A model generated the notes under the pieces. The model ran no database searches, had not been told where the DNA came from, and saw only the letters and a list, made by a program, of their open reading frames with translations. A DNA stretch of 64,000 nucleotides from Streptomyces caniscabiei (GTDB taxonomy: Bacteria; Actinomycetota; Actinomycetes; Streptomycetales; Streptomycetaceae): the NCBI RefSeq assembly GCF_014930365.1, contig NZ_JABXWI010000019.1, forward strand, positions 1-64,000, given 5' to 3'. The position numbers and the translations under genes were made by a program. This document shows, piece by piece, positions 12,378-16,704 of the stretch (position 1 is the stretch's first letter; each line of letters opens with the position of its first letter).

Positions 12378-13763
12378 TCACGCCTTGGCGAGCTCCTTCT
12401 CACCCTCCGGCTCGGCGGGGGTGGCAGCCGGCGCAGCCGACCCGTGGCCGTCGTCCAGCAGCGTCGCCTCGTCGAACGGCGCCTGCCCGGCGAGGACCTG
12501 GCTCACCCGCTCCTTGTCGATCTCCTTGGTCCAGGTGCCGATGAGGACCGTGGCGACCGCGTTGCCCGCGAAGTTCGTCAGGGCGCGGGCCTCGCTCATG
12601 AAGCGGTCGATGCCGACGATGAGGCCGATGCCGTCCACCAGGGCCGGCTTGTGGGACTGGAGGCCGCCCGCGAGGGTCGCGAGACCGGCACCGGTGACAC
12701 CCGCCGCGCCCTTGGAGGCCACCAGCAGGAAGAGCAGCAGCGGGATCTGCTCCCCGACCGACATCGGCGTACCCATCGCGTCGGCGATGAACAGGGACGC
12801 CATGGTCATGTAGATCATGGTGCCGTCGAGGTTGAAGGAGTAGCCGGTCGGGACCGTGATGCCGACGACGGGCTTGCTGACACCCAGGTGCTCCATCTTC
12901 GCGATGAGGCGCGGCAGCGCCGACTCGGAGGAGGAGGTGGACAGGATCAGCAGGAACTCACGGCCCAGGTACTTGAAGAGCGTGAAGATGTTCATGCCTG
13001 CGACGACCCGCAGCAGCGCGCCGAGCACGATGAAGACGAAGAGGAAGCAGGTGACGTAGAAGCCGAGCATCAGGACGGCGAGGCTCTTGAGGGCGTCGAG
13101 GCCCGCGGAGCCGGTCACGGCCGCGATCGCGCCGAAGGCACCGATCGGGGCGGCCCACATCACCATCGCGAGGATGCGGAAGACCAGGCGCTGGATGTGC
13201 TCGACACCGCGCAGGATCGGCTGGCCGGAGTCACCCATGGCCTGGAGCGCGAAGCCGGCGAACAGGGCGACGAGAAGCGTCTGGAGGACCTCGCCGCCGG
13301 TGAAGGCGGAGACGATGGTCGTCGGGATGATGCCCAGCAGGAACTCGGTGGTGTCCTTGGCCTCGGCCGACACCTGCGCCTGACCGGTCTCCTTGATCGC
13401 GTCGGTGACCGCGAGGCCGGTGCCCGGCTCGACGATGTTGCCGACGACCAGGCCGATGCCGAGGGCGACCAGCGACATCACCGTGAAGTAGGCGAGGGCG
13501 ATACCGCCGACTGCGCCGACCTTCGCGGCCTTCCGTACGGAGCCGATGCCCAGCACGATCGTGCAGAAGATGATCGGCGAGATCATCATCTTGATCAGGT
13601 TCACGAACCCGGTGCCGATGGGCTTCAGCTCGACGGCGAAGTCGGGGGCGATGAGACCCACGGCGATGCCGAGGGCCACGGCCACGATCACGGCGATGTA
13701 CAGGTAGTGGGTGCGGTCCCGCTTGGCGGGAGCGGTAGGTGCCGTATGGGTGCTGCTGGCCAC
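12378..13763 (-). CDS. dctA: DctA, C4-dicarboxylate:cation symporter
   Basis: The 461-residue integral membrane protein belongs to the dicarboxylate/amino acid:cation symporter family (typical length 420-460) and probably imports succinate, fumarate and malate. Helix TM1 is YLYIAVIVAVALGIAVGLIA. Family hallmarks are MMISPIIFCTIVLGI, the Ser-rich hairpin LSTSSSESALPRLI, and GYSFNLDGTMIYMTMASLF, the ion and substrate site. The GTG at 13763 has AGGAGGG 5 nt upstream. The neighbouring CitA/CitB-type system at 14231-16704 is the likely inducer. The 5' region contains the hairpin array described at 13833-14119. Confidence 0.92.
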   Translation of the reverse strand: MASSTHTAPTAPAKRDRTHYLYIAVIVAVALGIAVGLIAPDFAVELKPIGTGFVNLIKMMISPIIFCTIVLGIGSVRKAAKVGAVGGIALAYFTVMSLVALGIGLVVGNIVEPGTGLAVTDAIKETGQAQVSAEAKDTTEFLLGIIPTTIVSAFTGGEVLQTLLVALFAGFALQAMGDSGQPILRGVEHIQRLVFRILAMVMWAAPIGAFGAIAAVTGSAGLDALKSLAVLMLGFYVTCFLFVFIVLGALLRVVAGMNIFTLFKYLGREFLLILSTSSSESALPRLIAKMEHLGVSKPVVGITVPTGYSFNLDGTMIYMTMASLFIADAMGTPMSVGEQIPLLLFLLVASKGAAGVTGAGLATLAGGLQSHKPALVDGIGLIVGIDRFMSEARALTNFAGNAVATVLIGTWTKEIDKERVSQVLAGQAPFDEATLLDDGHGSAAPAATPAEPEGEKELAKA

Positions 13764-14230
13764 GGCTGCCCTCCTCGTCGACGACGTCGTCGGCTCGCTG
13801 TTCCGGCGTGCGGCTCACGTCCGGGGGAATGCGGGAGTCGGTCTCCCTGGGGTGGGAACCGGCGGGTTCCCGGGTGGGAGACCGGCTCCCGGGGTCGGGA
13901 GCCGGCGGGCTCCCGGAGCCGGCAGCTGGGGGACTTCCGGCGGCGGTGGGAGCGGGGCTCCCGTGGGGTGTGGGAGCCGGGGCTCCCGGCGGTGGAAGCC
14001 GGCGGGCTTCCGGGGCCGGAGGCCGAGGCCTCCGGTGGGAGCTGGGGGGCTCCCGGGGGTGGGAGTCGGGCTCCCGGCGGCTCGGGTTGTGGGGTCCCGG
14101 GGGCGGGAGTCGTACTCCCTGTCGGTGTCCGTGCTGGACGAGTCGATGCAGTGACTATGTCCCTCCCTGTGAGGGCGGTCACCCTTCCGTTCATTTAGTT
14201 CACGCCAACCCGTACGTGCAGACTGTTGCC
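13764..14230. other. Divergent control region between dctA and the sensor kinase
   Basis: This 467-bp gap holds the hairpin array (13833-14119) and a less G+C-rich stretch at 14150-14229. The latter includes a repeated TTCATTTAGTTCA pair near 14189-14202, which could be a response-regulator site. I could not place a convincing promoter for either gene. No credible gene is present. Confidence 0.6.
13833..14119. repeat. Array of about 11 short hairpins, period about 22 bp, with compensating arms
   Basis: Inverted repeats of the form GGGAGC-n-GCTCCC follow one another at 13833, 13854, 13876, 13897, 13948, 13972, 13994, 14016, 14037, 14061 and 14105, with degenerate units near 13915 and 14084. 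Arms differ between units but stay paired: GGGAACC/GGTTCCC at 13854-13871, GGAAGCC/GGCTTCC at 13994-14011, GGAGGCC/GGCCTCC inside 14016-14035, and GGGAGT/ACTCCC at 14105-14119. The array fills the gap between the divergent dctA (start 13763) and the sensor kinase (start 14231). No protein of known type is encoded here. Confidence 0.8.
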
Positions 14231-16018
14231 ATGCGCGTCCCGCACCGCCTCCGCCCCCGCAGCCTGGCCGGTCAGCTCTTCGCCGTGCAGGCGGTGCTGA
14301 TCGCGGCCGTCGTGGCCGGATACGCACTGTTCACCTACGTCAGCGACCGCTCCCAGGCGGAGGAGGCGGGGCGCCGTCAGGCCATGGCCGTGGCGGCCAC
14401 GGTGGCGGACGCCCCCTCGGTGCGGGCGGCGATCCACACGTCCGATCCGACCGAGCGGCTCCAGCCGTACGCCACGGCGGTGCAGCAGCACGCCGGCGTC
14501 GACTTCGTCACGATCATGACCCGTGACGGCATCCGCTGGACGCACCCCGACCCCGACCGGATAGGCGAGCACTTCCTCGGCCACATCGAGAAGCCGCAGA
14601 ACGGCGAGTCCTTCACCGAGACCTACACCGGCACCCTCGGCCCGTCGGTCCGCGCGGTCACCCCGATCATGGAGAACGGCGAGGTCATCGGCCTGGTCAG
14701 CGCCGGCATCCGGGTCCAGGCGATCAGCGACCGCGTCCAGGACCAGCTCACGGCCCTGGTCGGCGTGGCCGTCGGCGCGCTCGCCCTCGGCGGCATCGGC
14801 ACCTATATCGTCAACGCCCGCCTGCGCCGCCACACCCACAACATGAACGCCTCCGAGCTCAGCAACATGCACGACTACCACCAGGCCGCCCTGCACGCCG
14901 TGCGCGAGGGCCTGCTGATGCTCGACGGCCAGTACCGGGTGGCCCTCATCAACGACGGGGCGCGGGAGCTGCTGGGGGTGACGGACGAGGCGGTCGGCCG
15001 TTCGGTGGCGGAGCTGGGGCTGCCCGCGCCGCTGACGGGCGCCCTGCTCTCCTCCGAGCCCCGGGTGGACGAGGTGCTCCTCACCGCCGAACGGGTGCTG
15101 GTGGTGAACACCTCTCCGGTCTCGGGCGGCCAGCGCCGGGGCGCGGTGGTCACCCTGCGCGACGTGACCGAGTTGCAGTCCCTCACGGGCGAGCTGGACT
15201 CCGAACGGGGCTTCACCCAGGCGCTGCGTTCCCAGGCGCACGAGGCCGCCAACCGCCTCCACACGGTCGTCTCGCTCATCGAGCTGGGCCGCTCGGACGA
15301 GGCGATCGACTTCGCGACGGCGGAGCTGGAGCTGGCGCAGGCGCTGACGGACCAGGTCGTGGCGGCGGTCAGCGAACCGGTGCTCGCCGCGCTGCTGCTG
15401 GGCAAGGCCGCGCAGGCGAACGAGCGGGGCGTCGAGCTGGTGGTCTCCGAGGACAGCCGCATCGACGACGGCCTCCTCCCGGAGTCCCTCCCGGCCCGTG
15501 ACCTGGTCACGGTCCTGGGCAACCTGATCGACAACGCGGTGGACGCGGCGCAGGGCTCGATGGGGGCGAGGGTGACGGTGACGGCGTACACGGATGAAGC
15601 GGGCGAGCCCGCCGAGACGGACGGGACGGACTGGACGAGCGAGGCGGGCGGGGCAGGTGCGACCGCCGAGGTGACGGAGGGCGGCTCGGACACCTCCGTC
15701 CTGGTGCTGCGCGTCGCCGACACCGGCGCCGGCGTGGACCCCGCCCTCGCGGAGGCCGTCTTCGAACGCGGCTTCTCGACGAAACCCTCCGGCCCCGGCG
15801 GCCGCGGCCTCGGGCTGGCCCTCGTGCGGCAGACGGCGCGCCGGCACGGGGGCACGCTGACGGTGTCGCAGGCACCCGGCGGCGGGGCCCAGTTCGAGGT
15901 ACGGCTGCCGCTGGGCACCAGCGGTACGCACCGGACGGGGCAGGCCGTACCGGCCGCACCGACCGCACATGCTGTCCAGGCCCCCCGGGCCACTGTGGCT
16001 GGAGGCGACGACGTATGA
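14231..16018 (+). CDS. CitA/DcuS-type sensor histidine kinase
   Basis: The 595-residue membrane kinase probably senses C4-dicarboxylates or citrate. TM1 is about residues 15-38, an extracytoplasmic PAS/sCache domain runs to about 170, and TM2 (VGVAVGALALGGIGTYIV) follows. A cytoplasmic PAS domain (ALHAVREGLLMLDGQYRVALIN) precedes the phospho-acceptor His in RSQAHEAANRLHTVVSLIE, the form typical of CitA/DcuS. The ATPase has LGNLIDNAVDA, DTGAGVD and GGRGLGLALV. An insertion rich in Glu, Thr and Gly lies near the ATP lid. The ATG at 14231 begins a clean membrane anchor; an upstream open frame to 13739 reads through the hairpin array and is rejected. The stop overlaps the regulator start (ATGA). 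Confidence 0.9.
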   Translation: MRVPHRLRPRSLAGQLFAVQAVLIAAVVAGYALFTYVSDRSQAEEAGRRQAMAVAATVADAPSVRAAIHTSDPTERLQPYATAVQQHAGVDFVTIMTRDGIRWTHPDPDRIGEHFLGHIEKPQNGESFTETYTGTLGPSVRAVTPIMENGEVIGLVSAGIRVQAISDRVQDQLTALVGVAVGALALGGIGTYIVNARLRRHTHNMNASELSNMHDYHQAALHAVREGLLMLDGQYRVALINDGARELLGVTDEAVGRSVAELGLPAPLTGALLSSEPRVDEVLLTAERVLVVNTSPVSGGQRRGAVVTLRDVTELQSLTGELDSERGFTQALRSQAHEAANRLHTVVSLIELGRSDEAIDFATAELELAQALTDQVVAAVSEPVLAALLLGKAAQANERGVELVVSEDSRIDDGLLPESLPARDLVTVLGNLIDNAVDAAQGSMGARVTVTAYTDEAGEPAETDGTDWTSEAGGAGATAEVTEGGSDTSVLVLRVADTGAGVDPALAEAVFERGFSTKPSGPGGRGLGLALVRQTARRHGGTLTVSQAPGGGAQFEVRLPLGTSGTHRTGQAVPAAPTAHAVQAPRATVAGGDDV

Positions 16019-16704
16019 CGCAGGCCGGGTCCGACCCCATCAGAGTCCTGGTCGTCGAGGACGACCCCGTTGCCGCCGACGCGCACATGATGTACGTCGG
16101 CCGTGTCCCCGGCTTCACCGCGGTCGGCAAGGCGCACACGGGCGCGGAGGCGCGGCGCGCGCTGGACCGTATGCCGGTGGACCTGCTGCTGCTGGACCTC
16201 CACCTGCCGGACGTGCACGGTCTGCAGCTGGCCCGTTCCCTCCGCGCGGCCGGCTACCACGCGGACGTGATAGCGGTGACGTCGGCGCGGGACCTGACGG
16301 TGGTCCGGGAGGGCGTCTCGCTGGGCGTGGTCCAGTACGTCCTCAAACCCTTCACGTTCGCAACCCTCCGTGACCGTCTCGTCCGCTACGCCGAGTTCCA
16401 CGCGGCGGCGGGCGAGGCCAGCGGCCAGGACGAGGTGGACCGGGCGCTGGCGACCCTGCGGGCCCCCGGCCCGGCGGCGCTGCCGAAAGGGCTGAGCGCC
16501 CCGACGCTGGAGCGGGTGACGGTGGCCCTGCGGGACTCGGGCGAGGGCCTGACGGCGGCCGGGGTGGCGGAGGCGGTCGGCATCTCACGCATCACGGCCC
16601 GACGCTATCTGGAGCACCTGGTCGACGCGGGCCGAGCGGCACGCAGCCCGCAGTACGGTCAGGTGGGACGGCCGGAACTGCAGTACCGATGGGTGAAGGG
16701 GTAG
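16015..16704 (+). CDS. CitB/DcuR-type response regulator
   Basis: The 229-residue partner of the kinase has a receiver domain with acidic pocket VEDD, the phospho-acceptor in LLLLDLHLPD, the Thr/Ser switch in AVTSARD and Lys in VLKPF. The C-terminal half (GLTAAGVAEAVGISRITARRYLEHLV) is the helix-turn-helix of the CitB class. It is translationally coupled to the kinase. By family and position it most likely activates dctA across the 467-bp divergent region. Confidence 0.9.
   Translation: MTQAGSDPIRVLVVEDDPVAADAHMMYVGRVPGFTAVGKAHTGAEARRALDRMPVDLLLLDLHLPDVHGLQLARSLRAAGYHADVIAVTSARDLTVVREGVSLGVVQYVLKPFTFATLRDRLVRYAEFHAAAGEASGQDEVDRALATLRAPGPAALPKGLSAPTLERVTVALRDSGEGLTAAGVAEAVGISRITARRYLEHLVDAGRAARSPQYGQVGRPELQYRWVKG

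Follow-up and report, generated by a model that had tools for sequence, protein, structure and literature searches.

The divergent region between a dctA-like dicarboxylate symporter gene and a sensor kinase gene in Streptomyces caniscabiei holds a tandem array of 13 stem-loops, which we interpret with moderate confidence as a dctA mRNA leader whose hairpins multiplied in one particular lineage; most likely, it would serve as an additive damper at the RNA level. All coordinates refer to the window, i.e., the whole stretch of 64,000 nucleotides that was analyzed.

Layout, folding and putative promoter of the array

A reading of the window from sequence only (hereafter the sequence-only reading) had placed the array between a dicarboxylate transporter and its likely two-component controller, and domain searches bore this setting out. 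dctA lies on the minus strand, whereas the sensor kinase gene and then the response regulator gene lie on the plus strand. The features are as follows:

12378–13763, minus strand: dctA-like sodium:dicarboxylate symporter gene (Pfam SDF, E 1.7e-98)
13803–13824, minus strand: dctA-proximal leader hairpin CCGG-CGTG/CACG-CCGG (direct reading; also read in most array-free species)
13833–14119, minus strand (assigned from the promoter footprint): tandem array of 13 stem-loops of the GGGAGC-loop-GCTCCC family
13854–13871, no strand assigned: unit with the paired variant GGGAACC/GGTTCCC (direct reading and parse)
13994–14011, no strand assigned: unit with the paired variant GGAAGCC/GGCTTCC (direct reading and parse)
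14016–14035, no strand assigned: unit with the paired variant CCGGAGGCC/GGCCTCCGG; orthologues have GGAGGC/GCTTCC (G.T) or GGAAAC/GTTTCC (A-T)
14154–14182, minus strand: putative dctA promoter (−35 GTGACC at 14182–14177, 17-nt spacer, −10 CATAGT at 14159–14154)
14189–14202, minus strand: direct repeat TGAAC-N4-TGAAC beside the promoter, conserved, though somewhat variable in the most distant loci
14219–14224, plus strand: −10-like CAGACT, conserved as CA[GC]ACT and separated from the downstream kinase ATG by six nt
14231–16018, plus strand: sensor histidine kinase gene (sCache_3_2, PAS, and HATPase_c domains)
16015–16704, plus strand: response regulator gene with a DpiA-like HTH_64 domain (domain search)

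Direct reading and parsing recovered the tandem stem-loops that had been described at 13833–14119, including two degenerate units, which are poor hairpins at about 13916–13939 and 14078–14102. The units run head-to-tail with start-to-start steps of 15–29, mostly 19–27; loops comprise 3–6 nt, except in the degenerate twelfth unit, and linkers mostly 3–9 nt. The proposed period of about 22 bp holds as a mean but not as a fixed spacing, the distance between neighboring units being 22.7 on average with a standard deviation of 4.1 (157 distinct unit pairs). All four paired variants named beforehand are present in their units, i.e., GGGAACC/GGTTCCC, GGAAGCC/GGCTTCC, GGAGGCC/GGCCTCC (14016–14035), and GGGAGT/ACTCCC (14105–14119). 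Loops and linkers of the window's array are 67% G on the plus strand, corresponding to C on the dctA mRNA strand. The core of the dctA-proximal hairpin (CGTGCGGCTCACG, at most two substitutions) was found in 109 of 110 surveyed genomes.

Several other explanations were rejected. An assembly artefact is contradicted by other assemblies that contain the same array at the corresponding position, among them the complete chromosome of S. scabiei 87.22 (NC_013929.1, locus L096). A CRISPR array does not fit, as the units vary and the linkers are short and alike. A coding repeat was discarded as well: although a reading frame runs through the array without a stop codon, the unit steps are not multiples of three, and the same holds for several length differences between species.

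The array comprises eight non-overlapping perfect hairpins (≥ 6 bp), a number that averaged 1.4 and never exceeded 6 in 1000 dinucleotide shuffles. It is the densest 287-bp hairpin window in 1.264 Mb scanned of the 10.9-Mb genome (the window and 60 further 20-kb stretches); the next separate hairpin-dense place in this sample reaches 6, and no 287-bp window outside the array reaches 7. Folding of both strands, as the sequence-only reading had proposed, revealed z-scores of −4.8 for the plus and −9.0 for the minus strand. As minus-strand RNA, 11 of the 13 units fold singly at −5.9 to −17.7 kcal/mol, and the two degenerate units at −5.2 kcal/mol. In 14 of 15 species, folding fell below its own shuffles by a wider margin for the minus strand than for the plus strand; in the L080–L085/L091 and L093/L094/L100 groups, the margin of the minus strand was only moderate (z −2.4 to −3.8). 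Pairing within units amounted to 70/78 in the window versus 56/72 in the neighbor register, and in-unit pairing was lower in one of 12 species (L071); this comparison is not used as evidence because the unit parser itself scored in-unit pairs.

Upstream of the array, on the minus strand, a conserved box allowed the alignment of 62 out of 63 loci, corresponding to 60 distinct rows. GTGACC occurs in all 62 aligned loci, a count that is conditional because the alignment anchor overlaps the −35 element. The count for the −10 hexamer is unconditional: at a spacing of 17, A2 and T6 are present in 59 of the 62 loci (GATAGT in 42, CATAGT in 12). This promoter-like footprint is common to array-bearing and array-free species and fits the NTGACC and TANNNT motifs given for S. 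coelicolor promoters in PMC4895711, except for −10 position 1, where G or C usually replaces T. No promoter was detected in this region by a generic sigma-70 scan. In the array-bearing loci read, the array lies on the dctA side of the −10 element rather than towards the kinase gene, and is followed by the dctA-proximal hairpin. Since the conserved footprint lies upstream of the array, we place the array in the putative 5′ leader of dctA, and a structured dctA leader, one of the options offered beforehand, is the one that the footprint in 62 of 63 loci appears to favor. Transcription would be expected to start near 14147, about 30 nt before the array, giving a predicted leader of about 385 nt with the whole array, compared to about 80 nt in array-free species. 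Leaders over 150 nt are reported for 413 S. coelicolor transcripts (15.3%) in PMC4895711.

On the opposite strand, CA[GC]ACT was found in the last 40 nt before the kinase start in 61 of 63 loci, with a gap of 6 nt in 39. Such a −10-like element just before the start codon suggests that the kinase mRNA is leaderless and does not include the array. Both the putative dctA promoter and TGAAC-N4-TGAAC, a possible response-regulator site, fall into a block of about 50 bp (14154–14203) with strong conservation among the Streptomyces loci read. A GTGA-N6-TCAC motif, which we take to be Crp-like, overlaps the putative promoter within 14154–14182.

Distribution, growth by duplication and constraint

The conserved box together with the kinase start has matches in 376 of 392 Streptomyces genomes sampled. 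To survey the leader, we used 110 genomes (30 search loci plus 80 fetched as nearest by the box, hence not a random sample). Under a strict rule, GGGAG-type hairpins were absent in 96 genomes, while one was found in five, two in one, three in one, and 7–15 in seven genomes; this rule undercounts, as L153 and L156, with the arrays of L080 and L085, score only 3 and 1. In L042, L064, and L151, two or three copies of the dctA-proximal leader element (TGCGGCTCAC) are present, and the dctA leader thus seems prone to multiplying hairpins.

In a tree of DctA plus kinase (69 loci, 887 columns), the 26 array-bearing tips formed one clade with a support of 0.99, and the array was found in every tip of this clade. 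Its internal branching is partly weak, two nodes having a support of 0.39 and 0.59, and some species are probably represented by two tips each (L096/L104, L074/L109). Two of the 71 candidate loci were excluded from the tree as they have no adjacent full dctA: in L086 (S. cyaneus), the kinase gene is not adjoined by a full dctA and none was found in the fetched stretch, and L088 (S. regalis) contains only a partial dctA at the locus edge, 2.6 kb from the kinase gene. Parsed unit numbers were 4–6 in S. ruber, S. poonensis, and S. sclerotialus (some doubtful), 6–9 in the spongiae/bluensis group, 8–10 in the ipomoeae/neyagawaensis group, and 13–18 in the scabies group. The variable region spans 108–440 bp inside the array clade and 16–72 bp in 32 of the 43 outside tips where it was measurable. 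Recent unit copies are visible as near-identical neighbors in L069, L105, and L106. Regarding other changes at the locus, an insertion in L094 (S. sclerotialus, about 2200–2930) splits the conserved box from the kinase start; presumably, it carries a TnpB-like zinc-finger C-terminus of IS200/IS605 type.

Array DNA matched at E ≤ 1e-6 in 12 of the 392 genomes. Seven of these matches lie at dctA, including that of the present genome; the other five (L110–L114) look, on reading, like unrelated repeats or coding sequence. One of them, L110, belongs to a 5.3-Mb genome (G363) without a match to the dctA–kinase box; at about 1500–1600, it contains about four copies of a tandemly repeated 22-bp hairpin (GAGGCC-GG-GGCCTC, GGGGTGC linkers), which perhaps form an independent hairpin array. 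The end of contig G000:C4 (L011) and the start of G000:C24 (L014) share the same kind of GGCCGGGGCCGGAGGCC tandem repeat and are possibly one locus broken in assembly.

A second copy of the array was not found in the 10.9-Mb genome, the best other DNA match having an E-value of 4e-4 (40 of 135 first-look candidates scored). The pattern GGGAGC-N2-8-GCTCCC occurs at 25 sites in the 10.9 Mb, four of them in the array, compared to 55 for a reversed control pattern. A REP/BIME element or mobile palindrome, the latter suggested by the sequence-only reading, was rejected for want of dispersed copies in this search. That reading had also considered a multi-site operator with a period of two helical turns. 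A multi-site DNA operator for the neighboring response regulator or another dimeric protein would account for the strongly conserved half-site GGGAG/CTCCC and for the position next to a two-component system. Centre distances do cluster at 10.5 bp (Rayleigh R = 0.405) with a tiny naive p-value, yet resampling of loop and linker lengths yielded the same R (0.397, 45% of nulls as high), and helical phasing is thus absent beyond the length distribution. Furthermore, the gap between half-sites varies (mostly 2–7 nt), the same box is present in the 96 of 110 genomes without a GGGAG-type hairpin under the strict rule, and a different conserved repeat, TGAAC-N4-TGAAC, adjoins the promoter. Phasing equal to the null, variable half-site spacing, and the missing second copy argue against both an operator array and a mobile palindrome, and we regard the operator as quite unlikely.

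Compared to seven relatives (L068, L104, L096, L066, L067, L105, and L106, of which L096 and L104 share the same array), arms differed by 2–4%, loops by 3–10%, and spacers by 5–10% (aligned positions of gapped alignments), whereas fourfold sites differed by 13–17% in dctA and by 20–28% in the kinase gene. The arms thus change several times more slowly than fourfold sites, and the array is therefore constrained. As a noncoding control, we used the region from the regulator to the next gene, for which eight loci were tried and three had no pair of flanking genes. Differences amounted to 20% in L066 and 16% in L069, both of comparable length, and to 4%, 4%, and 14% in L068, L067, and L070, where the comparison is unfair because 111, 126, and 109 bp were freely gapped into 604. 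With two of its five values equal to the array's own 4%, this control is weak, and it is with this caveat that we conclude that the array is not drifting freely. Neutral expansion of a functionless local tandem repeat would fit the widely varying unit number and the two control values as low as that of the array, although these are unfair by length; given the constrained arms and the presence of the array in all 26 clade tips, we consider it very improbable. Local unit duplication together with arm constraint supports the earlier proposal that selection or copying acts on the paired structure.

Paired changes between units and orthologues

To avoid circularity in the test for paired changes, only the consensus was used to anchor the arms, and the 3′ arms were reassigned at random. 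The window's array contains three double-changed pairs that are still complementary, compared to a shuffle mean of 0.3 (3 of 2000 shuffles reach 3). Among the 141 distinct units of all loci then read, 19 such pairs were found versus a mean of 4.7 (0 of 2000), and among 85 distinct arm pairs 11 versus 4.6 (13 of 2000); these shuffle counts are not probabilities, as units of related species are non-independent and the parser is loose, also admitting doubtful single units of array-free species. Between orthologues, one unit of the ipomoeae-type group shows A-T (L074, L097), A.C (L070, L072), and G-C (L095), and unit 9 of the scabies group shows G-C (window, L068), G.T (L066, L067, L069), and A-T (L096, which was misaligned in the orthologue comparison and was read by eye instead). 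Across six near arrays, variation affects 7 of the 83 pairs; with three more arrays included, the number rises to 14 of 83, partly due to misalignment. As the array is conserved and most variant units are common to the scabies group, orthologues show few new compensatory changes relative to one another. The paired changes claimed in the sequence-only reading thus exceed shuffles between units, but involve few double changes between orthologues.

The strand preference of imperfect pairs was also determined, as A.C on the plus strand would be G.U in the dctA mRNA. No G-U bias toward the dctA strand was detected, either among the 141 distinct units (26 G.T versus 13 A.C on the plus strand) or in the orthologue comparisons (2 versus 3, and 3 versus 3). 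In one tally, the wobble counts run against the reading as dctA-strand RNA.

This absence of strand preference is in line with a mutation process at the DNA level that mainly keeps the pairing, where template switching corrects quasi-palindromes and slippage multiplies units without selection on RNA. Both the formation and the maintenance of hairpins by template switching have been reported (PMC8794818). The recent unit duplications in L069, L105, and L106 point in the same direction, as do inner stem pairs that vary yet match (GGGAGCCT/AGGCTCCC in L106; GGGAACTC/GAGTTCCC in L074 and L097). However, correction alone does not predict arms that evolve several times more slowly than fourfold sites, uncompensated arm mismatches persist (e.g., T.T in unit 1 of the window), and no comparable array was found in the 1.264 Mb scanned of this genome. 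We regard such a process as a possible but rather unlikely main explanation; template switching does account for some of the paired change, and could well be the source of its raw material.

Proposed mechanism and comparison with known systems

For the expanded dctA leader, we propose the following course of events. A short ancestral leader of about 80 nt with one conserved hairpin would have gained a CGGGAG-loop-CTCCCG stem-loop, which would have been multiplied by tandem duplication, reaching 13–18 units in the scabies group, under continued constraint on the paired arms. During leftward transcription, the array would fold one hairpin after another as it emerges from RNA polymerase, with the C-rich linkers competing little for pairing. 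Each hairpin might slightly reduce productive dctA expression, be it by pausing, U-less termination, or slower ribosome access, and the row of hairpins would thereby form an additive damper with the regulated promoter on one side and the ribosome site on the other. Of these elements, the array, its single clade, the local multiplication of units, the constrained arms, and the promoter-like footprint are shown by the data, whereas array transcription, an effect as RNA, and damping are inferred. A more far-reaching and rather doubtful idea is that of a natural rheostat leader, in which copy number (about 4 to 18, depending on the species) sets dctA output via additive transcription damping or multivalent binding by an RNA-binding protein of actinobacteria; its evolution would proceed by duplication of units together with paired correction of the arms. 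If the leader reading is true, a structured leader has been built by tandem multiplication of one hairpin, and living Streptomyces show the stages of 0, 1–3, 4–6, and up to 18 units; it would then be directly testable how multiplying stems stay paired and whether hairpin number tunes output.

Regarding known RNA families, a search of 13000–15000 against Rfam gave no match above the gathering score. A known riboswitch was rejected, as the sole match, a Na+ riboswitch, scored 19.5 bits against a cut-off of 40.5 bits and lies on the other strand. Like structured 5′ leaders and attenuators, the array is a conserved structured stretch after a promoter-like footprint; unlike these, it has no Rfam family or T-run terminator and repeats a near-identical unit. 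REP/BIME elements are extragenic palindromes in tandem with many copies dispersed in the genome. The array shares the extragenic, tandem palindromes, but is not dispersed in this genome. CsrB/RsmZ-type RNAs are sRNAs with many similar protein-binding hairpins, additive valency, and GGA in the loop. The array would likewise present many similar hairpins in one RNA; however, its GGA lies in the stem instead of the loop, and it is a putative mRNA leader instead of an sRNA. We know of no binding protein for the array hairpins.

In open-licence PMC literature, no tandem hairpin array in a dctA leader or in any Streptomyces leader was found among the matches listed (for some searches, the best 10 of 846 and the best 12 of 134). 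The closest geometry is that of hairpin clusters for intrinsic termination, which are described in PMC8355165 as short stems in close tandem downstream of stop codons, most often two hairpins. The array could accordingly be viewed as a U-less hairpin cluster that serves as terminator or insulator (tandem I-shaped terminators): its stems (2–10 bp), less than 15 bases apart, fit these clusters, for which no U-tract is needed, and U-less, I-shaped-like hairpin 3′ ends located downstream of genes are reported for S. clavuligerus in PMC8269248. The array hairpins have no T-run as in a classical Rho-independent terminator, and none of the three terminator-like matches in 13700–14300 lies in the array. 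No annotated-type transcription unit ends here because both flanking genes point away, and the array thus does not lie downstream of a stop codon. A terminator would need to act prematurely inside the dctA leader, which overlaps with the expanded-leader reading, and as a separate explanation we deem it unlikely. Hairpin clusters and U-less ends are already known, but in both sources (PMC8355165, PMC8269248) they are described downstream of genes, whereas the present array consists of 13 hairpins derived from one repeated unit and precedes a start codon in the region that separates two divergent genes.
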